DNA of 40,407 bases, from IMG/VR virus record IMGVR_UViG_3300042691_004359, positions 1 through 40,407 of that record. One strand, written 5' to 3'. Source of the stretch: a virus. The translations under genes and the position numbers were made by a program. The notes under the pieces were generated by a model that saw only the letters and a program-made list of their open reading frames with translations, was not told the DNA's origin and did not search any database. This document shows, piece after piece, positions 12,042-37,647 of the stretch (its first letter is position 1; each line of letters begins with the position of its first letter).

Positions 12042-13580
12042 TTAGTAGTACGCCGCTTTACGTGATGAGCGCCAATACTGTGGTTCTTCCTTCTCATCGG
12101 ACGGCAGGCGGATGAACCCACCTTGACGAAACCGCATGAGCGCCATGACCGTAGAGTCCACCAAGTCATCGTTAGGCATGAATGGGAATCCAGCGATTTC
12201 TTCCACAACTTCTTCTGCCCACCGCGTTTGGGGAACCCAAACAAGTCCGCTGCGAACTATGTCCACCACGGAGTTGAGTCGAGCGAGTTTATCCCCGGAG
12301 CCACGGTGCGGGGTGTATTCCTGCACCGGCAAACCCATCCGACGCATCTCCTGATACAGAGGAGTACCGCTGGATTTCTTTTCAACGATGAACGAATCAG
12401 GTTCCCAGAATTTGTATTCATCAACTGCCAAGCGCTTCAGTTCAGGAAACTCCAGTCGCTTCTTGATGCTATTGAGCAGGATGATGCTGTAACAGTCCTC
12501 TTCCTCGTTCATCCACACGCCCCACGTAGTCAGGGCGGTGAAGTCCGCACGGTTATGGGTCTCCGCAGCGGCATCCAAGGACATGATGACGTACTCGCAC
12601 TTGGGCGGGTCATCCTTATCCCAACGCTTCCACCACTCCCGCTTGATAACCGACGCTTCTTCGGCGGTGGGGTTCTGCTGATACTGCGCGTTCCACTGGA
12701 ACAGCGGCATGGATGCCTTGGTACGCAGTAGCGCAGGGACATCGTAGAACTCAGGCCATAGCGCACGCTGTGAACCATCGGAAGATTCAAACAGCGCAGG
12801 AAACTCGATCACTTCATACTGATCGGAGTCCTCGTTCTGAGCCATGTCCTTGGTCACGCGCCCCGTCAGGTCGTTCAGGTGCCACCGTGTCTGGATGATT
12901 GCCACCCGACCACCCGGCATCAAGCGGGTACGCGCACCGTAGGTGAACCACTCGTAGGCTTTGTCGAAGACATCGAAGTTGCCGTTGATGATGTCCTGCT
13001 CGTTGTGGGGATCGTCCACCAGCAGCAAGTCCGCACCGCGTCCAGCCAGCGCAGAACCTACGCCGCAGGCGTAGTACTCGCCGCCTACGTTTGTGTTCCA
13101 GCGGCCTGCCGACTTACTGTCTTGCGCCAAAGATGTTGTCGGGAATACCTGCTTGTAGGCGTCGGTGTCGATGATGTTTCGCACCTTGCGACCGAAATCG
13201 ACCGCCAGATCGGCAGTGTGCGACACCATAAGTACCTTTTTATCGGGGTACTTGCCGATAAACCATGCTGGAAAGTAGATAGAGACAAGTTGGGACTTGC
13301 CGTGACGCGGCGGAATGTTGACGCACACCCGATCCTTGTCCCCATCGGCAATCGCCATGAGCATGTCTGCAAGGATGCGGTGGTGTTTACCCACCTTGTA
13401 GTCTGGTTGAATGTGTTTGCAGAACTCAATCAGGTCGTCGCGGCATGATTGGGCGACTCTTCGCTTCGCCAGTGCGTCAGCGATCTGCAAAATCTCTTCT
13501 TGTTCGGACGAATCGAACTGATCGATGTTGGCGACCAGCAGTTCGATGTCCTCTTCGGAGACATCCAGCGGATCAAGCAT
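12042..13580 (-). CDS. terL: Terminase large subunit (packaging ATPase-nuclease)
   Basis: The 512-residue protein has Walker A PPRHGKSQ (90-97), Walker B LLLVDDP (185-191) and the coupling motif TRWH (231-234) of the ATPase. An RNase H-like nuclease follows, with acidic residues D335 (SLDAA), E400 (VEKKSSG) and D472/D475 (NDDLVDS). Length and order are normal for a large terminase. It pumps DNA into the prohead through the portal and cuts concatemers. It overlaps terS by eight bases and precedes the portal gene, the classic late-operon start. All key residues appear present. Confidence 0.95.
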   Translation of the reverse strand: MLDPLDVSEEDIELLVANIDQFDSSEQEEILQIADALAKRRVAQSCRDDLIEFCKHIQPDYKVGKHHRILADMLMAIADGDKDRVCVNIPPRHGKSQLVSIYFPAWFIGKYPDKKVLMVSHTADLAVDFGRKVRNIIDTDAYKQVFPTTSLAQDSKSAGRWNTNVGGEYYACGVGSALAGRGADLLLVDDPHNEQDIINGNFDVFDKAYEWFTYGARTRLMPGGRVAIIQTRWHLNDLTGRVTKDMAQNEDSDQYEVIEFPALFESSDGSQRALWPEFYDVPALLRTKASMPLFQWNAQYQQNPTAEEASVIKREWWKRWDKDDPPKCEYVIMSLDAAAETHNRADFTALTTWGVWMNEEEDCYSIILLNSIKKRLEFPELKRLAVDEYKFWEPDSFIVEKKSSGTPLYQEMRRMGLPVQEYTPHRGSGDKLARLNSVVDIVRSGLVWVPQTRWAEEVVEEIAGFPFMPNDDLVDSTVMALMRFRQGGFIRLPSDEKEEPQYWRSSRKAAYY

Positions 13581-14604: not shown

Positions 14605-15234
14605 ATGGCAATTCAAACCAACGCGATGGCCCAGGCCGCGCAAACCCTCTCTCAGCCGATCAAGACTCGCCGCGCCCCTAGCGCGGGTCGGAGTGTGAAG
14701 AAGCAGCCCGACGCCGTGAAGGTGACGTGGGACACGGCTTCGGCCCGTCTGATCGACGCCGTGAAGGCGGAGGGCGTGGCCCACAACAAATGGGTTCAGG
14801 CGTCCGATCAATTGTGGATTCTCGGCGTTCGCCCTGCTGCTCTGGAGCAGGTTACCGTCAACGGGAAAAAGCAGGATTCGGAAACCTACCAGAAGGTGGA
14901 GCAGATCGTACAGAAGGGATTCAGCGCGAGAGTGCAGTCCCTGCTGGCCGTCAACGGCGCGGGCCTGTCGGGCCTTACTGAGGCGGAGCGCGGCGAGCGC
15001 CGCTACTGGGTGAAGCGCACCCCGGTAATGATGCAAAGGGTAATTCAGTACCTGAAGCGCCACGAGGAAAACGAACGGGGGACAACGGAGAAGAAAACCC
15101 TTTCCCAGCAGGTGGCGAAGATCATCAAAAAGCAGATCGAACGAATCGAAAAGGCGGAGGCCGAGAAGGTGTCAGACTTCAACGTCCCTGAAGTTCTGTC
15201 CCTGCTGCGGCAGGCTGTCGCTGAACTGACCTGA
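14605..15234 (+). CDS. Basic protein of unknown function, single-gene unit
   Basis: The 209-residue protein has a basic disordered N-terminus (KTRRAPSAGRSVKKQ, about 20-34), a helical central region with TWDTASARLIDAVKAEGVAH, a Lys/Arg-rich stretch (RYWVKRTPVMMQRVIQYLKR), and a Lys/Glu-rich helical C-terminus. AAAGGAAA precedes the ATG. It stands alone between the divergent control region and two tandem terminators, so it is probably expressed independently of both operons. No family recognised. The basic character would allow nucleic acid binding; a regulatory or packaging role is conceivable but unproven. Confidence 0.75.
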   Translation: MAIQTNAMAQAAQTLSQPIKTRRAPSAGRSVKKQPDAVKVTWDTASARLIDAVKAEGVAHNKWVQASDQLWILGVRPAALEQVTVNGKKQDSETYQKVEQIVQKGFSARVQSLLAVNGAGLSGLTEAERGERRYWVKRTPVMMQRVIQYLKRHEENERGTTEKKTLSQQVAKIIKKQIERIEKAEAEKVSDFNVPEVLSLLRQAVAELT

Positions 15235-15247
15235 TCAGGTCAACCCC

Positions 15248-15278
15248 AAAAACCCCGGCTTCGGTCGGGGTTTTTTTT
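15248..15278 (+). terminator. First of two tandem terminators
   Basis: An AACCCCG/CGGGGTT stem (15251-15272) with an eight-base loop is followed by eight T residues (15271-15278). It begins 13 bases after the stop of the gene at 14605. The A-run before the stem makes it potentially bidirectional. Confidence 0.9.
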
Positions 15279-15293
15279 CGCCCGTACTACGTC

Positions 15294-15329
15294 AGCCCGA
15301 CAGGCCCGCCCTGTCGGGCTTTTCTTTTT
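15294..15329 (+). terminator. Second tandem terminator
   Basis: A perfect 10-bp stem AGCCCGACAG/CTGTCGGGCT (15294-15320) with a seven-base loop is followed by TTTCTTTTT. Placed 15 bases after the first terminator, it makes termination here very efficient and insulates the downstream intergenic region. Confidence 0.9.
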
Positions 15330-15454
15330 CCTGCTAAGCCTGTCTTCTGTATTCCTTACGTTTGTTTTTGAGACCAGTTCCCTAAGCAGCGGCGAGGAGC
15401 ATTGGTGGGTATGCACGGGGCGTTCGGCTCGGCCCAGCGCGGCTCAGAAACAAA

Positions 15455-15581
15455 GTTAGCCAACACGTGTTGACTTACTTACAGGACTTGTACACCACAC
15501 ACCCCACTTTGAAGCCAGTTTTCGGAGCAGCGGCGAGGAGGACGAGCCCCCACAAAAGTAAGTCAACACGTGATGGCTAAC
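15455..15581. repeat. 26-bp inverted repeat with 75-bp spacer
   Basis: The left arm 15455-15480 and right arm 15556-15581 are inverted copies with one mismatch. The left arm contains the perfect palindrome CAACACGTGTTG (15461-15472); the right arm has an imperfect copy. The arms could form a cruciform or bind a dimeric protein at two sites. The spacer includes one copy of the word AGCAGCGGCGAGGAG. Confidence 0.85.
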
Positions 15582-15614
15582 TGTACTAACTGTTCGGGAA
15601 CTTAGCGTACCCAA

Positions 15615-15923
15615 TGTACTAATGTTCTATGTACTAGGAAGACGAGTGTTCTGTGTTCCAACCAGAAGACCGTTCTAATGTTCTGTCAGAGGTCGTACCC
15701 ACTGTTCTAATGTTCTGTCAGAGGTCGTACCTATCGTTCCATTGCCAATCTGACGAATGTAGCGAACGAATGTTCGGAAAATCGCAAATCGGGGGTACAA
15801 CCATTAAACTGCATGAAACAGCATACAGCCCCCGTAGAAAATGTCAGTTGATTCCAAAACACACAGGGTAACCTGTGGTTTTTAGTAGTAAGTAATAGTA
15901 TTTAAGATAATGTTCTAATGTTC
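15615..15923 (+). repeat. Iteron-like repeats TGT(T/A)CTAATGTTC
   Basis: The word TGT(T/A)CTAATGTTC occurs at 15615-15627, 15671-15683 (first base C), 15703-15715 and 15911-15923. The middle two are part of a perfect 28-base direct repeat (15672-15699 and 15704-15731) with 32-base period, about three helical turns. Related GAATGTTCG and GAACATTC words occur at about 15768, 16052 and 16108. Confidence 0.75.
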
Positions 15924-16173
15924 GTATTGTACCCCCATAGAACCCTGCCACCGCGAAGGTACCCTTGAAACCAGTGCTTCGACCCTACGACAACGCCTTC
16001 GGACACCGAATAGGCCGTTTTCGCCACGGTTCCCCCGGAACAATCAAACTAACGAACATTCCCCTGCAATCAAGGACTTACCCCGCTACAAATCACCGAC
16101 TCCCAAGAACATTCACGCTATGCCACACACTACCATTCTTCATCACATCTCGTCATCATTTACCACTAAAAAC

Positions 16174-16238
16174 TTGACATAGGCATCATAGTGTGTTACA
16201 ATGTATTCATACGGTGGAAGAGCGAGAACGGCACCGTA
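16174..16238 (+). promoter_or_regulatory. Early promoter 1 with leader hairpin
   Basis: TTGACA (16174-16179) and TACAAT (16197-16202) with an ideal 17-base spacer. The downstream GTATTCA is shared with promoters 2 and 3. The leader forms TACGGTG (16210-16216) paired with CACCGTA (16232-16238) around a loop containing GAAGAGCGA. The operator palindrome seen at the other two is degenerate here. Drives the genes from 16284. Confidence 0.9.
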
Positions 16239-16283
16239 GACAACACCAACCCCCCGCCTCGCAGTCAGTCAAGGAAACAGATC

Positions 16284-16664
16284 ATGAAGACTCGTACCAC
16301 TCAATTCATCCGCACCCACAAGGTGCCCAACCAAAACAACGAGACAACGGACCTCATCGCCGCCCTCTCCGAGGGTGCGTCCTATCGGCTCACCGAACGT
16401 GCCACGCTCGACCTCCACGACCTGTTGCAGAACAACGTGGACGGGGTCGAATTTGATGAAGATGTTTTGGAAGATCAAAACATCGAAGTGGGATTCGAAC
16501 TCGATTCCGTGTGCGGGTCCATCCGCACCATCGAAGAGATCATGACTGACCTGTGCGAACTCGCATCCGAGCCGAGTGCAGAGCAACTCATTGCGGACTT
16601 CTACCGCACGCCCAAGTTCAACCCGGTCGTTGCCACCTTCGGCAAGGTGCGCCGCCCCCGCTAA
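16284..16664 (+). CDS. Early protein of unknown function (126 residues)
   Basis: Begins MKTRTTQFIRTHKVPNQNN; the ATG at 16284 follows AAGGAAAC, and a longer reading that would start inside the promoter is rejected. The protein is moderately acidic, with a helical region (TERATLDLHDLLQNNVDG) and a second around IRTIEEIMTDLCELASEPSA, and a basic C-terminus (GKVRRPR). No known domain recognised. As the first gene after early promoter 1 it is likely made at once after infection, a position often held by host-takeover proteins. That role is inference only. Confidence 0.75.
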   Translation: MKTRTTQFIRTHKVPNQNNETTDLIAALSEGASYRLTERATLDLHDLLQNNVDGVEFDEDVLEDQNIEVGFELDSVCGSIRTIEEIMTDLCELASEPSAEQLIADFYRTPKFNPVVATFGKVRRPR

Positions 16665-16678
16665 CCCACCAACCCAAA

Positions 16679-16700
16679 CCCCGGGGCATACGCCTCGGGG
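16679..16700 (+). other. Intergenic RNA hairpin before the gene at 16720
   Basis: CCCCGGGGC pairs with GCCTCGGGG (nine pairs, one G-U) around an ATAC tetraloop, 10 bases before the GAGGAAAC ribosome binding site. No T-run follows, so it is not a classic terminator. It may protect the upstream mRNA or adjust translation of the next gene. Confidence 0.65.
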
Positions 16701-16719
16701 CAACTCACGAGGAAACATC

Positions 16720-17100
16720 ATGAACACTCAAAAGCAAACCGCCGCCATCATCCTCCGCGCATTGCGCGAACAGATCGACCCCACGGTCGATGCAGCGGAG
16801 GCCATACAGGCCGAGCAAGGCTACGCCTCCTGCTACACCCAGACAGTCAAGGCTGGTGCGGCCAAGGCCGAACAGTTCGCTGCCGACATAGCCGAGTACG
16901 TTTTGCATCACAACCGCCGTGCCGCCATGCGGGCCAAGCACACCCCCGGCAGTGAGTACTACCGGTATATGACCGAGCGGATGGATGAGATCCGCTGCGC
17001 CATCTTTGCGTGGACTAGTGGCGATTCCGACATTGTCACTGCGTGCGGGTACGGCATTGTTCCGGTGGCGCAAGCCATCGAGCGTTTGCTGGCTGAGTAA
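16720..17100 (+). CDS. Early protein of unknown function, helical
   Basis: Begins MNTQKQTAAIILRALREQID; the ATG at 16720 follows GAGGAAAC. The 126-residue protein is largely helical and Ala-rich (KAGAAKAEQFAADIAEYVLH), with RYMTERMDEIRCAIFAW and a C-terminal helix (PVAQAIERLLAE). Four cysteines are scattered and do not form a clear metal site. No family recognised. It is the second gene from early promoter 1, behind a strong intergenic hairpin. Confidence 0.75.
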   Translation: MNTQKQTAAIILRALREQIDPTVDAAEAIQAEQGYASCYTQTVKAGAAKAEQFAADIAEYVLHHNRRAAMRAKHTPGSEYYRYMTERMDEIRCAIFAWTSGDSDIVTACGYGIVPVAQAIERLLAE

Positions 17101-17115
17101 GGGAAAGGTATCAGC

Positions 17116-17421
17116 ATGAACTACAAACCCAAGCGCCCAGACCCCCATGCTCCACCCCGGTTCGCCGGTAAGTACGGCGGGAAGATCAACTACCGCAACA
17201 CGAGCACATCCGTGCTCACTCCCAAACCATTCATCCGGGTAACGGAGGTGCCCGACTCGCTCAACCCATCCCAGACCGGCGCACCCCACGCCGCAAAGGT
17301 TGACCCAAACAAATACACCGGTACTGCGTGTATCGGTATTGCTGCAATGCACAAGTCCAACCTTGTGCCCGTGTTCAACAGCCAAGCCGCTATCGATGCG
17401 GCAACCATGAGGAGGAATTGA
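17116..17421 (+). CDS. Early protein of unknown function (101 residues)
   Basis: Begins MNYKPKRPDPHAPPRFAGKY, with a Pro- and Lys-rich, probably disordered first third, then KPFIRVTEVPDSLNP and a region with small and hydrophobic residues (TACIGIAAMHKSNLVPVFN). AAAGGT lies upstream of the ATG. The product is basic and lacks membrane segments. It is followed without a gap by a TTG-start gene at 17422. Function not recognised. Confidence 0.7.
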   Translation: MNYKPKRPDPHAPPRFAGKYGGKINYRNTSTSVLTPKPFIRVTEVPDSLNPSQTGAPHAAKVDPNKYTGTACIGIAAMHKSNLVPVFNSQAAIDAATMRRN

Positions 17422-17601
17422 TTGGCTAAGAAAAAGCCGAGACCGCTGGTCAACAAGACGGGCTCCGTGCCCGAGTTGATGCAGGACGACTGCCGTGGGT
17501 TGAGCAAGTGGCTATCAACAAGGCCCGACGCTCGACTGCACGCAAGAGAAGCCGCCGCTGCGATAGCAAGAAACAGGAGTACAAACAACCAAACACCGTA
17601 A
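17422..17601 (+). CDS. 59-residue basic protein with TTG start
   Basis: The reading frame starts with TTG directly after the TGA of the upstream gene and is preceded by AGGAGG at six-base spacing, a strong site that decides the start. The product begins MAKKKPRPLVNKTGSVPEL and has a Lys/Arg-rich start and an Ala/Arg-rich helix (HAREAAAAIARNR). It ends 15 bases before early promoter 2. No family recognised; basic enough to bind nucleic acid. Confidence 0.7.
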   Translation: MAKKKPRPLVNKTGSVPELMQDDCRGLSKWLSTRPDARLHAREAAAAIARNRSTNNQTP

Positions 17602-17613
17602 ACCACCACCAAA

Positions 17614-17680
17614 TACTTGACATAGATGTCAAGTAGTGTTATAATGTATTCAGACAGTGAGAGAGCGATCAAACACTGTC
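17614..17680 (+). promoter_or_regulatory. Early promoter 2 with perfect palindromic operator and leader hairpin
   Basis: TTGACA (17617-17622) and a consensus TATAAT (17640-17645) are 17 bases apart. A perfect 10-bp inverted repeat, TACTTGACAT then ATGTCAAGTA with AG between (17614-17635), covers the -35 box. The leader stem is GACAGTG (17653-17659) with CACTGTC (17674-17680), enclosing AGAGAGCGA. The sequence is nearly consensus and so intrinsically strong. Confidence 0.92.
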
Positions 17681-17710
17681 AGAAACGTGTGCAACTAGAA
17701 AGGAAACACC

Positions 17711-18016
17711 ATGATGAAAGACGATCTGCTCGATGCCTTGCACCTGTGGGTGCTGGGTGCGTGCTACCTGCACAACGCCCGGGTGAATACGTTCGCCCGG
17801 TTCGCCACCCCGTTCGACGCCGAGCCGCTCGATCACAAGAGCGACGAGTACGCTGACAAGGAGCGCATCCGCTGCGCCGACTGGTTCAGCCGCGTCTATG
17901 GCGTTGTGGTGGACGCTGTGCTGCACGGCACCTCCCCCACCGGGAGGCACTCGGACTTTGAGGCAGAACTCATGCTGAAGGCCAAGCGGATCTTCGGCGT
18001 CCATTCAGGAAAGTAA
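17711..18016 (+). CDS. Early protein of unknown function (101 residues)
   Basis: Begins MMKDDLLDALHLWVLGACYL, behind AAAGGAAAC. The N-terminal helix is amphipathic to hydrophobic but too broken by polar residues to call a membrane segment. The middle holds KSDEYADKERIRCADWFSRV, and the C-terminus is helical and basic (ELMLKAKRIFGVHSGK). It is the first gene behind early promoter 2. No family recognised. Confidence 0.75.
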   Translation: MMKDDLLDALHLWVLGACYLHNARVNTFARFATPFDAEPLDHKSDEYADKERIRCADWFSRVYGVVVDAVLHGTSPTGRHSDFEAELMLKAKRIFGVHSGK

Positions 18017-18021
18017 ACACC

Positions 18022-18282
18022 ATGAGCGCTTTTGGATGCCCCCACTGCGAGGGCTACGGCATCGAGCCGGATGACGAGGCGACGGACAGAAGGGATACGA
18101 ACGTAGTGGCGCTGCTGCGTGCAGCGTCCCTGCTGATCCGCCACTGCAACATAAACAACATCGCGGTGTGCAACGTAAACACCGACTTCATCGCGGACTT
18201 GAGCAAGGCCGTGGATGCGGCAGAGGACTTCTTCGATCCGTGGATCACGGACGAGGAACTGCTGGCGTGGCAAGACGAGTAA
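18022..18282 (+). CDS. Small protein with CxxC motif
   Basis: An 86-residue acidic protein starting MSAFGCPHCEGYGIEPDDEA, with one CxxC knuckle at residues 6-9 followed by Gly, like a half zinc-ribbon or thioredoxin-like motif. A hydrophobic helical region (VVALLRAASLLIRHC) and an acidic C-terminus (DEELLAWQDE) follow. It begins five bases after the upstream stop. Metal binding is possible if it dimerises. Function unknown. Confidence 0.7.
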   Translation: MSAFGCPHCEGYGIEPDDEATDRRDTNVVALLRAASLLIRHCNINNIAVCNVNTDFIADLSKAVDAAEDFFDPWITDEELLAWQDE

Positions 18283-18306
18283 ACGAGTAACTCAGGAGAA
18301 ATGAGC

Positions 18307-18822
18307 ATGGAAAAGCAGTCATTCACCTATCCCCTGTCGTGGAAGTCTTTCACCGAGGCCGATGTCGGTTGGGTGAAGTCCGTGTTCCGGGCGCTGCCCG
18401 ACCCGTTCCTGTTTCTCAAGATGGCAGAGGTGCGTATCAGTACGTCCTGCTGCGATGAGAACTTCTACCGAGATGAATTCGGAGAGGACGCAGTGCGCGT
18501 GGACGACACCGTCGAGATCAACGGTGCGTACACGATCACCCGCGTGATCAGGGCCGAGACGACCGAAACACTGGTTTCAGCGCACCACCGCGAGACCTTC
18601 AAATATGTTGTCTACGAGCCCTGTCTTATCCCCGGTTCGCACTGGGAGCCCGAGGAGTGGGACATCTCCGAGGTCGGCGTGTTCGATTCGCTAGCCGATG
18701 CGGTGCGGGCGATCTTCCTGCGTGAGTGCGAGGGTACGTTCAACCTTGCTGCCGAGACCGCATTCGCTGCGGACATTGCGAAGGCAAAGCAAGAAGAGGT
18801 GTTCGATGACATCCCGTACTAA
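18307..18822 (+). CDS. Acidic early protein of unknown function (171 residues)
   Basis: Begins MEKQSFTYPLSWKSFTEADV; ATG 18307 lies eight bases after GGAG, whereas an in-frame ATG at 18301 is only two bases away. The protein is acidic, with EVRISTSCCDENFYRDEFGE, a beta-rich middle (VDDTVEINGAYTITRVIRAE) and a helical C-terminus (FLRECEGTFNLAAETAFAAD). No known domain. It overlaps the zinc-ribbon gene at 18806 by 17 bases. Small acidic early proteins often inhibit host factors, but nothing specific supports that here. Confidence 0.75.
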   Translation: MEKQSFTYPLSWKSFTEADVGWVKSVFRALPDPFLFLKMAEVRISTSCCDENFYRDEFGEDAVRVDDTVEINGAYTITRVIRAETTETLVSAHHRETFKYVVYEPCLIPGSHWEPEEWDISEVGVFDSLADAVRAIFLRECEGTFNLAAETAFAADIAKAKQEEVFDDIPY

Positions 18823-19006
18823 GCAAAACAAAAACAAAGCAAACACCCACGAAGCGCAGTTCAAGATGCGTCCGGTCTGTGGTGGCTGTGGGAGATTATT
18901 CGCTGCCGGCGCTCGCAAGGCTGGCTTTCGTGTGTGCAACAACTGTAGGAGAAGTGGATGGACAGATGGAGTTGGGATGACAAGGCAATCACCGTCATCG
19001 CGGTGA
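18806..19006 (+). CDS. Small zinc-ribbon protein
   Basis: The 66-residue frame starts inside the end of the previous gene, with GAGG nearby upstream. It has a basic start (MTSRTKQNKNKANTHEAQ) and two knuckles, CGGC and CNNC, about 20 residues apart with RPVCGGCGRLF and GFRVCNNCRRSG around them: a typical zinc ribbon. The C-terminus overlaps the 27-residue membrane peptide gene. Nucleic acid binding is the usual role of such ribbons. The long overlap on both sides lowers confidence somewhat. Confidence 0.65.
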   Translation: MTSRTKQNKNKANTHEAQFKMRPVCGGCGRLFAAGARKAGFRVCNNCRRSGWTDGVGMTRQSPSSR

Positions 19007-19041
19007 TCGGATTTCTTTTGATGTTTGGAGGATGGATATGA
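18958..19041 (+). CDS. 27-residue membrane mini-protein
   Basis: The frame encodes MDRWSWDDKAITVIAV followed by IGFLLMFGGWI: a short polar start and a hydrophobic segment long enough to cross the membrane (about residues 9-27). AGGAG lies six bases before the ATG, and its stop overlaps the next gene's start as ATGA. This combination of ribosome binding site, membrane segment and coupling makes it a credible real gene despite its size. It might act on the host membrane or as a small regulator. Unrecognised. Confidence 0.6.
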   Translation: MDRWSWDDKAITVIAVIGFLLMFGGWI

Positions 19042-19484
19042 GAACCGTTACGAATGAACTGATGGAACTTGTGGATGGTGCGGGCTTCGACTACGCACGG
19101 CACGTGCTGCTGTGTGCGCTCAAGTACATGAGCGAAGCCGAGGTAGCCGACATGGCTCGGATAAACGAGTTGATGGAGACCAAGGAGGAGCGCGAGGAGG
19201 AAGAACCGAATGAGGGGGGACCGAAGATGAAGCGGCACTCCGCAACCGTAATCGTTACCGAGACCAGCACATACGAAGTTCAATTCGATGCGCCGGAACA
19301 CGCCGACATGGATGAGTTGGACGAACTTGCCCGAGAGGAATGGTTGTCCCGTACGTACTTCTCCCGGGACTACGAGCGCGAGATCGAAGTTGAACTGGCA
19401 GATGAAGACGCGGGCAGTGACCAAAACCCCATTGCCATCATGCACGCCTTCGCTCTGAAGAACTTTGGGGGTAACCATGAGTGA
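19038..19484 (+). CDS. Acidic early protein of unknown function (148 residues)
   Basis: Begins MRTVTNELMELVDGAGFDYA; GGAGG sits six bases upstream of ATG 19038, which overlaps the preceding stop as ATGA. The protein has a helical first half (LKYMSEAEVADMARINELME), a very acidic linker (KEEREEEEPNEGG) and a beta-type segment (SATVIVTETSTYEVQFDA). It then has an acidic region followed by the end SDQNPIAIMHAFALKNFGG. No family recognised. The strong negative charge could mimic DNA, but this is conjecture. Confidence 0.75.
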   Translation: MRTVTNELMELVDGAGFDYARHVLLCALKYMSEAEVADMARINELMETKEEREEEEPNEGGPKMKRHSATVIVTETSTYEVQFDAPEHADMDELDELAREEWLSRTYFSRDYEREIEVELADEDAGSDQNPIAIMHAFALKNFGGNHE

Positions 19485-19659
19485 AGGGATGACCCGAGCC
19501 GATGCTCTGCGCGTGGCGATGGACGAACTGACCAACGCGATGGACGAGATCGAGCAGATGCCCGAGATGGATCGCAAGTACCTGAAGAACGACAAAGACG
19601 TTCTGACGGATGCCTACAACGTGTTGTGGGAACTGAGAAAGGAGATGAACGAAGCGTAA
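19477..19659 (+). CDS. 60-residue helical protein
   Basis: Begins MSEGMTRADALRVAMDEL and continues TNAMDEIEQMPEMDRKYL, an acidic, Met-rich, all-helical protein. ATG 19477 follows GGGGGT and overlaps the upstream stop by eight bases. The last codons run right up to early promoter 3, only a few bases later. No domain recognised; probably a small regulatory or inhibitory protein of the early region. Confidence 0.7.
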   Translation: MSEGMTRADALRVAMDELTNAMDEIEQMPEMDRKYLKNDKDVLTDAYNVLWELRKEMNEA

Positions 19660-19660
19660 A

Positions 19661-19724
19661 TACTTGACATGGATGTCAAGGTGTGTTACAATGTATTCAG
19701 ACGGTGGGAGATCGCTCACCGTCT
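19661..19724 (+). promoter_or_regulatory. Early promoter 3 with palindromic operator and leader hairpin
   Basis: TTGACA (19664-19669) and TACAAT (19687-19692) with a 17-base spacer. CTTGACAT and ATGTCAAG (19663-19680) form an 8-bp inverted repeat over the -35 box. The leader stem AGACGGTG (19699-19706) pairs with CACCGTCT (19717-19724) around GGAGATCGCT. It drives the DUF3150-like, MoxR and VWA genes. Confidence 0.92.
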
Positions 19725-19758
19725 ACCAAGTGATCGCAAACAACGCAAAGGAAACATC

Positions 19759-20658
19759 ATGCAACTGAACTACGAGACCCTGACGACCGCCCCCGTGGTG
19801 ACCAACGTGCCCAAACTCACGAGTTCCCTGCGGCTGCTGGAACTGAGCATCTCCGTGTGGTCTGGCAGGAAGCAGGACAAGCAGGCCACCGCCGATGCGG
19901 CTACGGCGAACAACGCCGACAAGGCGCTGCTGAACACCACGAAGCAACTGCTCGGGGACTGCCCCGAATTGGAAGCCGTGCGTAAGTTTGCGGCGAACAC
20001 CCGTAACTTCGTTTACTCCAGCACCACCGCATGGGGTGACCTCGGGCAGCGTGCGTTCCCGCAGTTTCGCTTCCCCAACTTGTACAAAGAACTTGATGGG
20101 ATGAAGCAGGAGTTCGACCGACTGGTCCACGAGTTCCTTTCTGTATACGAGTTCAGGCGCAGCAACGCCCAAGCAAAACTCGGGTCGCTCTACAACCCCG
20201 ACGAGTACCCGTCTGCTGAGACGCTGCTGGGGAAGTTCCGCTTCACCGTGGCATTCCCCCCGGTGCCGGATGTCAACATCTTTAGCCAAGTGCAGGACGA
20301 GGCCGAAGCCTACCTGCGTGACGAGTACGCCCGTGTGTACACACAACGTATCAACGACACCATGAAGGAGGTGTTCGACCGACTGCACGACTCGCTCAAG
20401 CACATGGTCGAGCGGCTTGACTACAACGGGAAGGAGGACAAGAAGAAGTTCAACTCAAGCCTCGTGACCAACGTGCGGGACTTGGTTTCTATGCTGGCCG
20501 ATTTCAACGTGACGGGAGATTCACGACTCACCACGCTGCACACCCAACTCGATCAAGCCCTGACGGGCATCACTGCCGAGGCACTGCGCGAGGACGACCA
20601 CCTCCGGGCTGACACCCGGGCCAAGGTCAAGTCCGTGCTGAGCAACATGTCTTGGTAA
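19759..20658 (+). CDS. DUF3150-like protein, partner of MoxR/VWA genes
   Basis: The 299-residue protein starts MQLNYETLTTAPVVTNVPKL at an ATG behind AAAGGAAAC; a longer reading through the promoter is rejected. It has LRLLELSISVWSGRKQDKQA near the N-terminus, the pattern (L/I)SIxxWSGRKxDK that I associate with DUF3150. Long helical regions follow (LYKELDGMKQEFDRLVHEFL, RINDTMKEVFDRLHDSLKHM). It is the first gene behind early promoter 3 and precedes the MoxR ATPase, an arrangement I recall from other phages. Probably a substrate-recruiting or structural partner of the AAA+ machine. Confidence 0.7.
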   Translation: MQLNYETLTTAPVVTNVPKLTSSLRLLELSISVWSGRKQDKQATADAATANNADKALLNTTKQLLGDCPELEAVRKFAANTRNFVYSSTTAWGDLGQRAFPQFRFPNLYKELDGMKQEFDRLVHEFLSVYEFRRSNAQAKLGSLYNPDEYPSAETLLGKFRFTVAFPPVPDVNIFSQVQDEAEAYLRDEYARVYTQRINDTMKEVFDRLHDSLKHMVERLDYNGKEDKKKFNSSLVTNVRDLVSMLADFNVTGDSRLTTLHTQLDQALTGITAEALREDDHLRADTRAKVKSVLSNMSW

Positions 20659-20694
20659 TCACCAACCCCAACCAATCCAACCAAAGGAATCACC

Positions 20695-21816
20695 ATGAAC
20701 TTCTATGACGTTTCGCTTGCCCAAGCCACCAACATGATCCGCGTGGCGGGGGATACGAACACCGTGCTGTTGCAGGGTCACATGGGCATCGGCAAGTCTT
20801 CGATCCTGAAGACGCTGGCTCAACTGCTCCCCACCCACGTGCCGGTCTACTTCGACTGCACGACCAAGGACTTGGGCGACATCACCATCCCGAAACTCGA
20901 TACCAAGAACGAGGACGGCACCGATGCGGACTACGTGCGCTTCGTAGCCAACGAGGAGATGGGCCTGCACCTCGGCAAGCCGATCATCCTGATGATCGAT
21001 GAGTTCGGTAAGGCTAACCCCGCAGTGAAGAACGCCATGCTGAGGCTGATGCTGGAGAAACAGAGTGCCGGGTACAAAGCAGTGAAGGGCTCGATCATCT
21101 TTGCAACAACTAACCTCGGGGCCGAGGGGGTTGGTGATCTGCTGCCCGCCCATGCACGCAACCGCATCACCGTGCTGCGTGTACGCAAGCCTACGGCAGT
21201 GGAGTGGATCGAGAACTACGCAATCGACGCGGAGATTGATCCGACGCTGATCGCTTGGGTGTCTGAGAACGGACAAGTTTTCCAGTCATTCGAAGATGAT
21301 CCCAAGGCGGACAACGAGTACATCTACCACCCCTCCGCGCCGGGTCGGGTGTCGTTCGTCACGCCGCGCACGTTGGAACTGGCTTCTCATTGGCTCAAGC
21401 GTCGGGCGCACATGGGTGACATGGAACTGACTGCCGCACTTGTCGGCACCGTTGGCCCTCGCGCTGCGGGTGATCTGTCTGCATTCATCAGGATCGCAGA
21501 TCAACTGCCCACGCTGGAAGAAATCAAGAACAACCCGATGGGCGCAAAGGTTCCCACATCCGAGACCGCCACGTGCATGGTTGTCCACCGCACGCTGGGC
21601 ACCATCGAGCGCAACTGGACCGATGCGTGGATGGACTACATGATGCGTTTGTCCAAAGAAGCACAGGGCATGTTTGCCAACGCGGTGCGCCGTAGCGTGG
21701 ACAAGAAGGCGCGGGACGGTGTGGGCAATAAGCGCCTGATCGAAGTGAACACTAACAAGAAGTACATGGACTGGTGCCTTGCGAACAACTACCTGTTCGC
21801 TGCCGAGAAGAAGTGA
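20695..21816 (+). CDS. MoxR-family AAA+ ATPase
   Basis: The 373-residue protein has Walker A GHMGIGKSS (28-36), Walker B ILMIDE (98-103), a sensor-1 region IIFATTNLGAEG (about 134-145) and a downstream AAA lid containing PHAR-like arginines (LLPAHARNRITVLRV). Such MoxR-type ATPases act as chaperone-like remodelling motors together with a VWA protein, which is the next gene. AAAGGA precedes the ATG. It is expected to form hexameric rings in the cytoplasm. All ATPase motifs are intact. Target in infected cells is unknown. Confidence 0.88.
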   Translation: MNFYDVSLAQATNMIRVAGDTNTVLLQGHMGIGKSSILKTLAQLLPTHVPVYFDCTTKDLGDITIPKLDTKNEDGTDADYVRFVANEEMGLHLGKPIILMIDEFGKANPAVKNAMLRLMLEKQSAGYKAVKGSIIFATTNLGAEGVGDLLPAHARNRITVLRVRKPTAVEWIENYAIDAEIDPTLIAWVSENGQVFQSFEDDPKADNEYIYHPSAPGRVSFVTPRTLELASHWLKRRAHMGDMELTAALVGTVGPRAAGDLSAFIRIADQLPTLEEIKNNPMGAKVPTSETATCMVVHRTLGTIERNWTDAWMDYMMRLSKEAQGMFANAVRRSVDKKARDGVGNKRLIEVNTNKKYMDWCLANNYLFAAEKK

Positions 21817-21844: not shown

Positions 21845-23152
21845 ATGTTGATGATCGGTAAACCCCTGACGGCGCAGCAGCGCCTGATGAAGGCCGTGGT
21901 GGACATCATGGCGAAGGACTACTTCACCTCCATCAGCGGCGTGCTGATGGCCCTGAACCAAAGCATTCAACCCAAGGATGCGAAGGACAAGGCCACCGAG
22001 ACCGCGATGACAAACGGTCTGGACGTAACTTATGCGGAGGAGTTCGTGGACTCGCTGACGGACGCGGAGTTCCGCTTCCTGATCCTGCACGAGGCGTACC
22101 ACTGCATGTACAAGCACTTGATCACGTGGGACTGGATGTATGACATCGATCCGTCATTGGCGAATCAGGCGTGCGATCACGTGATCAATCTCAAACTGTT
22201 GGCCGCACGTGCCGAGGTAGGAGAGGACTTTCTCTCCATGCCAGAAGGTGGTTTGGCTGATCCGCAGTTCACTGGCATGGACAGCGCCGAGGTGTTCAAC
22301 AAACTAAGAAAGCAGCAGCAACAGCAGCAACAACAACCGCAGCAGCCTCAACCGGGGCAAGGTCAGCCGGGTCAGCCGCAGCAAGGCCAAGGGCCGGGGC
22401 AACCCGGGCAAGGGCAAGGTCAGCCGCAACTGCAACCGAATGCACGGCAAGGTTTTGACGACCACGACTGGGAGGGAGCGAAGGCTTTATCCGACGAGGA
22501 GAAGTCCGAGATCGGTCGCAAGATGGACGAGGCCGTCCGTCAGGGTGCGCTGCTGGCTGGCAAGACCGGGACCGGGGGCAACCGCGATGTCGAGGAACTG
22601 TTATCAGCCAAAGTGCGCTGGCAAGACGCGCTGCGTGAGTATGCACAGACCCTGTGTGCAGGTAAGGACTACTCTACGTGGCGACGCCCCAACCGCAGGT
22701 TCGTTGCTGCCAATGTTTATCTTCCCAGCAGCATCAGTGAAACCGTGGGCGAGATCGTCATCGGTATCGACACCTCGGGCAGCATCGGTGGGAGCGAGTT
22801 GTCTCAGTTCCTCGGGGAATGCTCTGCAATCTTTTCCTCGGTCAAACCCGAGGCGGTGCGGCTGCTGTACTGGGATACCGAAGTGTGTCAGTCCGAGCGG
22901 TACACGCAGGATCAACTTGATCGGATCATCACATCGACCAAGCCCGCAGGCGGTGGCGGTACGTCTCCATCCTGTGTTCCTGTTTACATGAATCAAAACA
23001 ACATCAAGCCGCAAGTCACGGTGATGCTCACCGATGGCTATGTTGGCAGCGACTGGGGTGCTAACTGGCCCAGCCCTGTGGTGTGGTGCGTTGTCGGCAA
23101 CAAGAGTGCCGAGGCCACCACGGGTAAGACGATCCACGTTGAGTGGAACTGA
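21845..23152 (+). CDS. Metallopeptidase-like plus VWA domain protein (DUF2201-type)
   Basis: The 435-residue protein has a zinc peptidase motif HEAYH (residues 82-86) in its N-terminal domain. A Gln/Pro/Gly low-complexity linker follows (about 157-198), and then a C-terminal von Willebrand A domain with a metal-ion site: DTSGS (309-313), the conserved Thr in GGGGTS (about 373) and D397 in LTDGY. This is the layout of COG3864/DUF2201-type proteins, partners of MoxR ATPases. AGGAG precedes the ATG. The polar linker is unusually long. Protease activity is possible but unproven. Confidence 0.85.
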   Translation: MLMIGKPLTAQQRLMKAVVDIMAKDYFTSISGVLMALNQSIQPKDAKDKATETAMTNGLDVTYAEEFVDSLTDAEFRFLILHEAYHCMYKHLITWDWMYDIDPSLANQACDHVINLKLLAARAEVGEDFLSMPEGGLADPQFTGMDSAEVFNKLRKQQQQQQQQPQQPQPGQGQPGQPQQGQGPGQPGQGQGQPQLQPNARQGFDDHDWEGAKALSDEEKSEIGRKMDEAVRQGALLAGKTGTGGNRDVEELLSAKVRWQDALREYAQTLCAGKDYSTWRRPNRRFVAANVYLPSSISETVGEIVIGIDTSGSIGGSELSQFLGECSAIFSSVKPEAVRLLYWDTEVCQSERYTQDQLDRIITSTKPAGGGGTSPSCVPVYMNQNNIKPQVTVMLTDGYVGSDWGANWPSPVVWCVVGNKSAEATTGKTIHVEWN

Positions 23153-24510: not shown

Positions 24511-24769
24511 AGTTCTGGAGGAGTTGGGTGCGTACTACGTCATGCCTGTAACGGGCGGGTACGGTAATTCGGGCGCACCCGACTTCCTCGTGTGTCTTGA
24601 TGGCAGGTTCATAGGCATCGAGTGCAAAGCAGGAGGGAACAAGCCAACCGCATTACAGGAAAAGAACCTTCGATTGATCAGGCAATCCAATGGCATCTCG
24701 CTGGTCATCGATGAGAACAACGTCGAGATGCTGAAGTCTTTGTTGAACGAAACAGGAGAAACAAGATGA
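24467..24769 (+). CDS. VRR-NUC domain nuclease
   Basis: The 100-residue protein shows the VRR-NUC nuclease core: KVKSQVRRVLEELGAYYVMP, GNSGAPDFLVCLDGRFIGIE then CKAGGNKPTALQEKNLRLI. The catalytic set is D in APDF and E-x-K in IECK. TTG 24467 is proposed as start because GGAG lies six bases upstream and the domain starts right after; an ATG at 24374 would give 31 more residues overlapping the previous gene. Stand-alone VRR-NUC proteins of about this size are structure-specific endonucleases, for example resolving branched DNA in phages. Overlaps the next gene as ATGA. Confidence 0.85.
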   Translation: MAATPERKVKSQVRRVLEELGAYYVMPVTGGYGNSGAPDFLVCLDGRFIGIECKAGGNKPTALQEKNLRLIRQSNGISLVIDENNVEMLKSLLNETGETR

Positions 24770-31214: not shown

Positions 31215-32753
31215 ATGGAAGTAGTAAATAACAACTCACTGCTGCTTAACCTGCGGGAGCCGAGTCGGGTTACTTCTGTAATACCCGGCAGTAAAATGGT
31301 GGGGCAGCATCAGGTATTGGTGGATTGGAATTTAGAGGCTGCGCAAGTACTGCGTAACCTGCAAATAAAGAATATACCATCCCCGATATTCAAAGATTAT
31401 GGGTGGCCCGGACTACACAAACCGTTTGACCATCAGAAAACCACGGCTTCATTCCTGACCCTGAACAAGCGTGCGTTCTGCCTGAACGAGCAGGGCACCG
31501 GCAAGACCGGGTCGGTCATCTGGGCGGCGGACTACCTGATGAATCACAAGCGGATTCGTCGGGTGCTGGTGATATGTCCTCTGTCAATCATGGACTCGGC
31601 GTGGCGTGCGGACCTGTTCAAGTTCGCCATGCACCGCACCGTGGACATTGCCTACGGGAACGCCGATAAGCGCCGGGAGATCATCAACGGGACTTCAGAA
31701 TTTGTAATCATTAACTACGATGGCGTAGAGATTGTCGCCAATGACATCGCAAATGCAGGGTTTGACCTGATTGTGGTGGATGAAGCGAACGCCTACAAGA
31801 ACGCCCAGACCAAGCGTTGGAAGGTGCTGAACTCCCTCCTTCGCCCCGACACATGGCTGTGGATGATGACGGGAACCCCAGCAGCGCAATCTCCTGCCGA
31901 CGCCTACGGGCTGGCAAAACTTGTAAGCCCAATGAACGTGCCTCGGTTCGCCAGTACGTTCAAAGAGATGGTGATGTACAAGGTTGGGCAGTTCCGCTGG
32001 GTGCCGAGATCGTCGGCTACACAGGTGGTCTTCAAGGCATTGCAGCCGGCGATCCGGTTTACCAAAGCCGAATGCCTTGACCTACCAGAGATGACCTATG
32101 TGAACCGTAGGATTGCTCTGACCCCGCAGCAGGAGAAGTACTACAAACTAATGAAGAAGCAGATGATCATAGAGGCAGGGGGTGAGGAGATAACCGCCGT
32201 GAACGCCGCTGTGAATCTGAACAAACTGCTTCAGTTGTCATGCGGTGCTGTCTACTCCGACACCGGGGAGACCATCGAGTTCGACATTCGCAACCGCTAC
32301 TCGGTGCTGAAGGAAGTAATCGATGAGACAGACAAAAAAGTTTTGATCTTCGCCCCCTTCCGCAACGCCATCGATCTGATCGCAGAGAAACTTCGGAATG
32401 ACGGCTACGCCACCGAGACGATCACCGGAGACGTATCTGCACCCAAGCGTGCCGACATCTTCAAGCGGTTCCAAGAGACCCCGGAGCCCCGCGTGCTGGT
32501 CATCCAACCGCAAGCGGCATCGCACGGTGTGACCCTCACAGCAGCCGACACGGTGGTGTGGTGGGGGCCGACGAGTTCCCTTGAAACTTACGAACAAGCC
32601 AACGCCCGAGTACACCGGGCTGGACAACGCCACCCCACTACAGTGGTGCGTTTGATAGGATCTGGTGCTGAAAACCACGTGTACCAGATGCTTGACTCTA
32701 AAAAAGATGTACACTCACAAATAGTTGACCTGTACAAGAGGTTACTTGACTAA
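31215..32753 (+). CDS. SNF2-type superfamily 2 helicase
   Basis: The 512-residue protein has motif I EQGTGKTG (92-99), motif II DEAN (189-192), motif III TGTP (219-222), and a C-terminal helicase lobe with VLIFAPFRNAIDLIAEKL, ITGDV, and motif VI EQANARVHRAGQ (about 466-477). This is the Snf2-like arrangement found in phage DNA translocases. It probably remodels DNA or removes proteins during replication. It starts after the structured leader. All motifs are present; target unknown. Confidence 0.9.
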   Translation: MEVVNNNSLLLNLREPSRVTSVIPGSKMVGQHQVLVDWNLEAAQVLRNLQIKNIPSPIFKDYGWPGLHKPFDHQKTTASFLTLNKRAFCLNEQGTGKTGSVIWAADYLMNHKRIRRVLVICPLSIMDSAWRADLFKFAMHRTVDIAYGNADKRREIINGTSEFVIINYDGVEIVANDIANAGFDLIVVDEANAYKNAQTKRWKVLNSLLRPDTWLWMMTGTPAAQSPADAYGLAKLVSPMNVPRFASTFKEMVMYKVGQFRWVPRSSATQVVFKALQPAIRFTKAECLDLPEMTYVNRRIALTPQQEKYYKLMKKQMIIEAGGEEITAVNAAVNLNKLLQLSCGAVYSDTGETIEFDIRNRYSVLKEVIDETDKKVLIFAPFRNAIDLIAEKLRNDGYATETITGDVSAPKRADIFKRFQETPEPRVLVIQPQAASHGVTLTAADTVVWWGPTSSLETYEQANARVHRAGQRHPTTVVRLIGSGAENHVYQMLDSKKDVHSQIVDLYKRLLD

Positions 32754-32801
32754 CCCACAGGCTACAACTACAGTTCGCGTCCCACTACAAGGAGAAACAA
32801 G

Positions 32802-33218
32802 ATGAGCGATACGGTTGATACAACCGGGGGTAACGTCCCCCTCGAAAAGTTGGTGCGTGTCTACATCAAGATGCGCGGTGCCAAGGAGAGGCTCACCAAA
32901 GATTTCGAGGCTCAGATCGAGAAGATCGAGTCCGACATGCAGACGGTCAAGCAAGCCCTGCTTGGCTACTGCAAGGATCACAACGTCGAAAGCGTCCGCA
33001 CCAAGGAAGGTGTGTTCTACCGTTCCATGAAGCGGCGGTACTGGACGAACGACTGGGAAGCGATGGGTAGGTTCATCGTGGAAAACAACGTGCCCGAACT
33101 TCTGGAGAAGCGTCTGCATCAGGCGAACACCCAGACGTTCATCGAGCAAAACCCCGAACTGCTGCCACCGGGGCTGAACGTGGACAGCGAATTCACCATC
33201 ACCATCAGGAGAAATTAA
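32802..33218 (+). CDS. Conserved phage protein with N-terminal coiled coil (138 residues)
   Basis: Begins MSDTVDTTGGNVPLEKLVRV behind AGGAGAAAC. It has a helical, charged N-terminal half (KERLTKDFEAQIEKIESDMQ), then ESVRTKEGVFYRSMKRRYWT, and a C-terminal part with the ending LLPPGLNVDSEFTITIRR. The order 'helical hairpin, S(V/I)xTxxGxxYR, ...PPGxNV....xxxRR' is one I know from many phage early proteins without established function. Sits between helicase and a small HTH gene, suggesting a DNA-replication setting. Confidence 0.75.
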   Translation: MSDTVDTTGGNVPLEKLVRVYIKMRGAKERLTKDFEAQIEKIESDMQTVKQALLGYCKDHNVESVRTKEGVFYRSMKRRYWTNDWEAMGRFIVENNVPELLEKRLHQANTQTFIEQNPELLPPGLNVDSEFTITIRRN

Positions 33219-33220
33219 CG

Positions 33221-33454
33221 GTGGAAGAAAACTACTACACAGTAGAGCAGATTGCGAAGCACTACCAAGTGTCGCTATCTACGGTCAGGTCTTGGATGCG
33301 TACCGGCATCCTGCCCCAAGACAAATACATCAAGATCGGAAAGACCTTCCGATTCAAGGTGAGTGAAGTCGATGCAGCCCTCCGAGCACACAACGCCGCG
33401 AAGCAAGCCAAGTTGAACGCGGTGGTGGATGCGACCCCCGATCAGGACATCTAA
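33221..33454 (+). CDS. Excisionase/MerR-like helix-turn-helix protein
   Basis: The 77-residue protein begins MEENYYTVEQIAKHYQVS and continues LSTVRSWMRTGILPQDKYIK then IGKTFRFKVSEVDAAL: a HTH_17 excisionase-type fold with the wing 'GKxxRFxxxEVDxxL'. GTG start 33221 follows AGGAGAAATTAACG. No integrase was found in the window, so an excision role is not implied; it may be a transcription factor or accessory DNA-bending protein. Confidence 0.85.
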   Translation: MEENYYTVEQIAKHYQVSLSTVRSWMRTGILPQDKYIKIGKTFRFKVSEVDAALRAHNAAKQAKLNAVVDATPDQDI

Positions 33455-33464
33455 GGAGAATCAC

Positions 33465-34373
33465 ATGAGCGAATTGGCCCTTTTCAAAGGCGGCGTGCCC
33501 GCCCACCTCAGCGCCCTTGCGGACGATGACACCACAAACACTCTGGCTGGGGGCGACCTCGGTCAGCGTCGGATCAGCATCAAGGGCGGCGTGTTCCGCG
33601 AGATGATTGGCTCCAAGGAATACCGCACCTCTGAGGAGCGGTCGATGGGTGTGGTCATCATCAAGGCCGCACCGAGCGTCCATCGCACGTACTTCGAAGG
33701 AAGTTATGTGGAAGGACAGAACGCATCGCCCACCTGCTGGTCATCCAATTCCCAGACGCCTGACGCTTCGGTGCCGGAAGATCAGCGCCAAGCCTCTAAG
33801 TGCATGGACTGCCCCCAGAACGTCAAGGGTTCCGGCCAAGGGGACAGCCGCGCTTGCCGCTATCAGCAACGCATCGCCGTGCTGCTGGAGGGGGAAGTCG
33901 AGAAGCGCGAGGTCTATCAAGTGATCCTTCCGGCTACCTCCGTGTTTGGTGACGGTGAGAAGAGCAAGTTGCCGCTGCAAGCCTATGCCAAACACCTGAA
34001 GGCGCATCGCACTCCGATTGCTGGAGTTGTTACCGAGATGCGTTTCGACACGGCTAGCCCGACCCCGAAACTTGTGTTCCGCCCCGTCCGTCCGATCACG
34101 GAAGACGAGTTGGAAGTTGTGCGGGAGATGCGGGATTCCGTGGAGGCCGAAGAGGCGGTCAAGTTGTCGGTGTCCCCGACCAAGCCCAAGGAAGCCCTGT
34201 TTGCCGAGCCCGAAAAGCCGAAGGAAGCAAAGCCCGCAAAGCCGAGCAAGCCTGCCCCTGCGGCAGAGGTCGAAGAGGTAGAGGCACCGCCGCCGAAGAA
34301 GGTGGCATCCAAGAAGCCGGAAGCCACTGGCTCTAACTTGGATGATCTCGTGGCAGGTTGGGACGACGAGTAA
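33465..34373 (+). CDS. Conserved phage early protein, Cys-rich, possible DNA-binding
   Basis: The 302-residue protein starts MSELALFKGGVPAHLSALAD at ATG 33465 behind AAGGAGAATCAC. Conserved-looking segments are RRISIKGGVFREMIGSKEYR, a Cys cluster (TCWSS, SKCMDCPQNVKGSGQGDSRA then CRYQQRIAV), LPATSVFG and VTEMRFDTASPTPKLVFRPV. A charged, Pro/Lys-rich tail follows (AKPSKPAPAAEV) and ends in acidic residues. The acidic tail and beta-core are reminiscent of single-strand DNA-binding proteins, which is inference. It precedes the primase gene. Confidence 0.75.
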   Translation: MSELALFKGGVPAHLSALADDDTTNTLAGGDLGQRRISIKGGVFREMIGSKEYRTSEERSMGVVIIKAAPSVHRTYFEGSYVEGQNASPTCWSSNSQTPDASVPEDQRQASKCMDCPQNVKGSGQGDSRACRYQQRIAVLLEGEVEKREVYQVILPATSVFGDGEKSKLPLQAYAKHLKAHRTPIAGVVTEMRFDTASPTPKLVFRPVRPITEDELEVVREMRDSVEAEEAVKLSVSPTKPKEALFAEPEKPKEAKPAKPSKPAPAAEVEEVEAPPPKKVASKKPEATGSNLDDLVAGWDDE

Positions 34374-34379
34374 TAAGTT

Positions 34380-34478
34380 TGGGGTAGAGATGGGGCAGCG
34401 GGTTAGCGCCGCTGCGTGGTTACCCACATCCAACTCCTTCCAAAGGGACGCTGCTTTATGCGGCCCGTCTCTACCCCA
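34380..34478 (+). ncRNA. Candidate multi-branched leader RNA upstream of primase-helicase
   Basis: A 15-bp closing stem joins 34380-34394 with 34464-34478 (one G-U). Inside are GCAGCG/CGCTGC (34395-34415), GTGG/CCAC (34416-34427, loop TTAC), and CCTT/AAGG (34436-34446). It is a junction of at least three helices, in the gap before ATG 34513. The cloverleaf has neither tRNA T-loop nor anticodon-arm features. No riboswitch family recognised. Confidence 0.6.
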
Positions 34479-34512
34479 CCCATATGTTCGTCAACCTCAA
34501 CCGTCCACGGGT

Positions 34513-37619: not shown

Positions 37620-37647
37620 ACCCCGGCCATGCGCCGGGGTCTTTTTT
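37620..37647 (+). terminator. Terminator of the rightward early unit
   Basis: An 8-bp stem ACCCCGGC/GCCGGGGT (37620-37640) with loop CATGC is followed by CTTTTTT. It lies 56 bases after the last rightward gene and reaches the stop codon of the opposing gene at 37646. It would stop early transcription from running into the leftward virion gene. Confidence 0.9.

Follow-up and report, generated by a model that had tools for sequence, protein, structure and literature searches.

The window analysed here is a 40,407-base viral record from an uncultured phage (IMGVR_UViG_3300042691_004359). Its structural genes run leftwards from the terminase gene (12042-13580, minus strand), and promoter 1, at 16174, opens a rightward series of early and replication genes that ends at an intrinsic terminator. 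The subject of this report is a unit found three times in the rightward operon, in which a near-perfect σ70 promoter is followed directly by a leader that can form an RNA hairpin (Table 1).

Promoter-hairpin units of the window

A first-pass annotation had proposed the three promoters (16174, 17617 and 19664), with a TTGACA -35 box, 17-base spacing, a near-consensus -10 box and GTATTCA directly after it, and all of these features were found as described. They are the top three σ70 matches between 12000 and 26000, where all others score 9, and are predicted from their sequence to drive the rightward early operon. GTATTCA is restricted to the clade of the window; relatives carry ATAG, ATAT, AGAC or GTTA at that place. 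The three copies of the unit are clearly related (82-87% identity). The nearest relative, L005 (L numbers denote loci fetched from a viral collection), has a terminase 94% identical to that of the window and carries two such units, not three.

The leader hairpins, at 16210, 17653 and 19699, also lie where the annotation had placed them. For the first 35 nucleotides (nt) of leaders 1, 2 and 3, RNAfold gave about -9, -11 and -16 kcal/mol, respectively, and each predicted transcript enters its hairpin no more than about 2 nt from +1. When the leaders are folded, the ribosome-binding site stays free, and the distance from hairpin to start codon ranges from 18 to about 100 nt. The annotation had also argued, from stem pairs that change together in the three copies, that the RNA hairpin itself is selected. 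Since only two pairs change on both sides within the window, these copies alone are insufficient as proof of covariation; the conclusion of selection stands on the homologous phages described below.

Table 1. Coordinates of the promoter-hairpin units and associated features in the window
Feature	Coordinates	Strand	Description	Basis
Promoter 1	16174-16202	+	TTGACA-17-TACAAT, extended -10 TG	σ70 match 11/12
Hairpin 1	16210-16238	+	TACGGTG (16210-16216) / CACCGTA (16232-16238), 7 base pairs (bp); 15-nt loop with GAAGAGCGA	
First gene of unit 1	16284-16664	+	126 aa, no assigned function; relative only in L005 (54%)	
Palindrome over -35 of promoter 2	17614-17635		operator-like, TACTTGACAT AG ATGTCAAGTA, 10-bp arms	
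Promoter 2	17617-17645	+	TTGACA-17-TATAAT, perfect, extended -10 TG	σ70 match 12/12
Hairpin 2	17653-17680	+	GACAGTG (17653-17659) / CACTGTC (17674-17680), 7 bp; 14-nt loop with AGAGAGCGA	
First gene of unit 2	17711-18016	+	101 aa, no assigned function; no relative in fetched loci	
Palindrome over -35 of promoter 3	19663-19680		operator-like, CTTGACAT GG ATGTCAAG, 8-bp arms	
Promoter 3	19664-19692	+	TTGACA-17-TACAAT, extended -10 TG; head of conserved operon	σ70 match 11/12
Hairpin 3	19699-19724	+	AGACGGTGGG / CTCACCGTCT, 10 bp; hexaloop AGATCG (6 nt)	model R1, E 6e-6
First gene of unit 3	19759-20658	+	DUF3150 protein, 299 aa	
ATPase gene	20695-21816	+	MoxR-like AAA ATPase (phrog_1297, AAA_5)	
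Metallopeptidase/VWA gene	21845-23152	+	DUF2201 putative metallopeptidase / VWA-like protein	
Intrinsic terminator	37620-37640	+	end of rightward operon	

Conservation of the hairpin in related phages

Searches with the terminase and the AAA ATPase were used to fetch 160 loci from the viral collection. The homologous loci and the window were scanned for σ70 promoters with an extended -10 box, ignoring hairpins, which yielded 93 distinct promoters. A strong stem began 4-9 nt past the -10 box in 59% of these, compared to 5.3% of dinucleotide-shuffled leaders; with a stricter stem cut the values were 40% and 0.8%. The stems mostly begin 5-7 nt (range 4-9) after the -10 box, at the predicted +1. 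Because this is where transcription normally begins, the mRNA is predicted to begin with the stem. These results confirm the association of promoter and hairpin, which reaches well beyond the window.

Searching with a covariance model of the hairpin, R1, gave about 70 matching sites in the fetched loci, a number that includes repeat copies of one site in overlapping loci. Among 40 matches that were checked, 37 begin 3-6 nt past a σ70 -10 box, with no more than 2 mismatches in the two hexamers. Two more, in L184, have a promoter at a slightly shorter distance (one at 424), and the last, in L196, is weak and probably due to chance. Further copies of the unit in related phages were therefore found essentially only at a fixed distance behind σ70 promoters. 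In the window the model detects hairpin 3 only, as the enlarged loops of hairpins 1 and 2 do not fit a hexaloop model.

A third search specified only the promoter and the letters of the loop and left the stem unspecified. In the 60 loop-anchored copies, pairing was found at stem offsets 5-8 in 62-75% of cases, versus 38-50% with permuted partners. A formal test was done on 48 copies, the rows dropped being those judged by eye to be chance matches, most of which also lacked the phage module, or those with an enlarged loop. Paired cells amounted to 81.4%, versus 64.5±1.4 after shuffling, and doubly changed paired cells to 102, versus 34.4±5.8. The covariation score was 0.548, compared to 0.08-0.16 (maximum 0.156) when partners were slid by 1-3 columns; these counts take in related sequences, and relatedness inflates the shuffles, but the slid controls retain it. 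RNAalifold found the identical stem unaided. Double changes were likewise seen in the 20 unit-3 sites that have a recognisable loop and precede orthologous DUF3150 genes. Copies inside one genome often differ in their stems while the loop is constant, as in L053, L061, L078 and L125. The stem sequence thus varies yet stays paired, and the RNA itself is under selection, as the first-pass annotation had held; the structure is kept by compensatory change, as is expected of 5'-terminal stabilising stem-loops. In the outer eight pairs there were 51 G-U pairs and 14 A-C mismatches (expected, 68 and 38), and this excess of G-U over A-C speaks, if modestly, for the RNA of the + strand being the working form.

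The pattern searches also returned viral matches that were rejected as chance, having neither the phage module nor a consistent hairpin (L165, L166, L167, L171, L176, L192, L196, L198, L199, L201, L202 and L211).

Conservation of the loop

In the core lineage the loop follows the consensus GG-A-R-W-K-C-G, with GGAATTCG, GGAAATCG, GGAGATCG and GGAAAGCG as examples. Variants with an enlarged loop retain a similar 5' side (GAAGAGCG at promoter 1 and GAGAGCG at promoter 2 of the window, GATAAAGCG in relatives). In more distant relatives the 5' stem is kept and the loop motif is gone. As leaders without the loop motif still have a strong 5' stem in 40% of cases, versus 5% when shuffled, the constraint on the 5' stem is the wider of the two, and that on the loop is narrower and specific to sequence. 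The conserved loop offers a handle for finding a partner protein. A site of the CsrA type was considered and, on inspection of the copies, rejected: most of them have both Gs of the GGA in base pairs, and such a site would not explain the conserved CG. Hexaloops and perfect σ70 boxes likewise do not fit a DNA-hairpin promoter of the N4 type.

Distribution of the unit

Neither the window nor any of ten relatives gave an Rfam match at the gathering threshold, and 16150-19800 gave none at E<=1. When 84,980 prokaryote species genomes (bacteria and archaea) were scanned for the promoter plus loop, only five scattered, unrelated matches were found, which we read as chance; no prophage or host copy of the unit was found in that scan. 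Among named phages, nucleotide searches with 15000-21000 and 31215-37365 of the window gave no match, nor did tblastn with the DUF3150 protein, and the terminase reached 46% at most (Pelagibacter phage HTVC027P). No description matching the promoter-hairpin unit was found in the literature. The hairpin is thus an RNA motif backed by covariation and without an Rfam match, present in many uncultured phages of a lineage that has no close cultured member in the collections searched. It marks predicted early transcription starts and the DUF3150–MoxR–VWA operon, and the covariance model can be used to annotate early promoters in phage contigs from the environment.

Possible function of the hairpin

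Selection on the hairpin probably serves to protect or tag early messages. The function that we favour, at a probability of roughly one half and on the basis of sequence comparison, is that of a 5'-terminal protective element of phage early mRNA. In the mechanism that we infer, each unit would couple a strong host-type (σ70) early promoter to a 5'-terminal RNA hairpin. Transcription would start 6-8 nt past the -10 box, and the transcript would open into the stem after about 0-2 unpaired nt. The stem could then deny RppH-type pyrophosphohydrolases and 5'-end-dependent nucleases (RNase E or RNase J) their single-stranded 5' end, and long polycistronic early messages would be kept alive by the protected end. 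In the core lineage the added purine-rich loop probably binds a phage or host factor, which would strengthen or regulate protection. The stabilisation of bacterial mRNA by 5'-terminal base pairing and stem-loops is established, and RppH of B. subtilis requires at least 2 unpaired 5' nucleotides (PMC3997798). A protective 5' end appears to be the most economical explanation because it accounts for the predicted placement of the 5' end, the preserved stem and the free ribosome-binding site, and agrees with the known effect on RppH and 5'-dependent RNases. Two observations weigh against it. The loop of the core lineage points to a specific partner, since a purely protective stem needs no conserved loop, and the promoters of L101, L116, L137 and L144 have little or no leader hairpin.

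The ompA, papA and aprE leaders, which carry 5'-terminal stabilising stem-loops, likewise have a stem at the extreme 5' end, within the 5' untranslated region (UTR), and a free ribosome-binding site. Unlike them, the phage module recurs at two or three promoters per genome and has a conserved loop and covarying stems, and its stabilising role is a prediction. If the hairpin protects or licenses early mRNA, it would represent a small, portable 5' element.

The first-pass annotation had suggested a 5' stability element, an antitermination site or a translational switch, of which the first best fits the position of the hairpin. Antitermination is the main alternative and is possible, if less likely. 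The hairpin and its loop would then act as a nascent-RNA element that loads onto host RNA polymerase, directly as in HK022 put or through a phage protein as in lambda nut/N, and makes the enzyme resist pausing and termination along the early operon of roughly 18-21 kb. The loop sequence conserved on a variable stem, the strict position right behind early promoters and a very long operon with only three strong promoters are all in keeping with this, and in HK022, too, putL is found just downstream of a promoter, PL (PMC9378689). The putL and putR RNAs are likewise phage RNA structures linked to early promoters; however, put is about 70 nt long, comprises two stem-loops and binds the beta' zinc-binding domain, while each leader of the window has one short hairpin of 26-29 nt with another loop and no Rfam match. 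Lambda nut (boxA/boxB) is similar in that early transcripts of the phage carry a small hairpin whose loop is conserved, but here the hairpin is at the predicted +1, the loop differs from boxB and no N-like protein was identified. A boxA-like partner was not noticed in leaders read by eye, no systematic boxA search having been made. Nor does the operon call for antitermination, as the + strand of the window was found to have no strong intrinsic terminator from 16.2 to 37.6 kb, where a weak one lies at 18988-19007. Moreover, many relatives have the 5' stem without the loop. A more novel proposal, which we put forward tentatively, is that the unit represents a new class of nascent RNA element coupled to promoters. 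It would consist of a minimal hairpin at the 5' end with the conserved loop GGARWKCG, would be confined to a single lineage of uncultured phages, and would be recognised by RNA polymerase or by a factor that the phage encodes, so that early transcription complexes or messages resist host shut-off.

Translational control, in which a protein of the phage or the host would bind the hairpin and repress or activate each unit's first gene, would agree with the position of the hairpin in the 5' UTR of these genes and with the conserved loop. We consider it improbable, because the hairpin leaves the ribosome-binding site free and lies at a distance from the start codon that varies widely, and because units 1 and 2 are followed by unrelated, poorly conserved genes. 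A role in DNA, with the inverted repeat acting as a repressor site and not as an RNA structure, is very improbable. Where perfect inverted repeats occur near start sites they are often operators, and other operator-like palindromes do exist in these phages, but the stems often differ within a genome (in L053, GTTCAGTAGG versus ATCGACTCGG) around a constant centre, which is the reverse of an operator; the true palindromes of the relatives do the opposite and are constant within a genome. Loop length, moreover, varies from 5-6 to over 20 nt, and G-U exceeds A-C. Finally, the two covarying pairs in the window and the evident kinship of its three copies might suggest hairpins that arose by chance, or relics of promoter duplication that are under no selection. 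This is refuted, and left with a negligible likelihood, by the covariation seen in many diverged phages, the 20 unit-3 sites before orthologous genes among them.

Palindromes at the -35 region and elsewhere

The palindromes that had been noted over the -35 box, with 10-bp arms at promoter 2, 8-bp arms at promoter 3 and a degenerate form at promoter 1, are as described. The sequence TTGACA-N3-RTRTCA occurs at the exact -35 place in 18 of the 93 promoters, mostly those of unit 3, where 0.15 would be expected; with one mismatch allowed there are 31, versus 1.8 expected. With such an excess the dyad is more than a by-product of the -35 consensus. Its constant position and conservation in relatives lend support to the earlier suggestion of an operator, which it probably is. 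A phage DNA-binding protein probably represses promoters 2 and 3 through the dyad, and promoter 1 weakly if at all. The annotation had further proposed that graded operators could time three early units. Of the two proteins that it had put forward as candidates for binding the palindrome, the helix-turn-helix (HTH) protein encoded at 24766 has partial relatives in 18 other loci; none was found for the HTH protein at 33221 in the fetched loci, though few extend that far. The window has this dyad at 17616 and 19663 and nowhere else, unlike stoperators of the cluster A type, which have many dispersed copies.

Many relatives carry perfect palindromes of other sequence that are specific to each genome, for example GTTAGGGnnnCCCTAAC, GTTATACnnnGTATAAC, GTTAGGCnnnGCCTAAC, GTTATCAnnnTGATAAC and TCTAGTCnnnGACTAGA. 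They occur in the early regions of L053, L047, L057, L061, L078, L092, L097, L105, L112, L115, L125, L132 and L161, are identical within a genome, number 4-14 copies per fetched stretch and often lie just before the ribosome-binding sites of early genes; those of most genomes share a GTTA half-site. None was found in the window. Their distribution suggests dispersed, stoperator-like operators. They resemble the SAS/ESAS elements of cluster K mycobacteriophages and the stoperators of cluster A, which are likewise regulatory sequences of phages that recur ahead of genes and contain inverted repeats. The SAS/ESAS elements, however, lie at translation starts and stoperators are DNA sites, whereas the hairpin described here is RNA, lies at the predicted +1 and has variable stems.

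Genes behind the units and other observations

Unit 3 heads a DUF3150–MoxR AAA–VWA operon in 41 loci including the window, DUF3150 orthologs being present in the 40 others. In more distant loop-bearing phages the hairpin unit is often found before the AAA gene instead (L164, L181, L185, L186, L208 and L212). The ATPase family phrog_1297 also matches ATPase-annotated genes in named podovirus-type records, among them Enterobacter phage EcP1 and phages of Achromobacter. Another type of promoter, TTGACA...TAAAGTTCAGTCATCGGTT, whose hairpin leader, ATCGGTTAAGCAATGCGGACATAAGAAGCGCGCTTAACTGAT, is longer, is present in L042, L043, L044, L046, L047, L069, L080 and L115; where checked (L115), it lies upstream of a 167-aa gene.

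Two tandem intrinsic terminators (15246-15320) follow the open reading frame at 14605-15234 (+) and separate it from promoter 1. The approximately 270 bases right before promoter 1 (15900-16170) are apparently non-coding and C/A-rich. A non-coding element, GAAACCAGTTCYNNNAGCRGCGGCGAG, is located 5' to the early promoters at 15360-15400 and 15503-15545. It is also found in L005, L013, L035, L053, L057, L078, L092, L097, L105, L112, L115, L132 and L161, in two (sometimes three) copies spaced about 100-200 bp apart, and is kept across strongly diverged phages; it is possibly an origin, a packaging site or an RNA.

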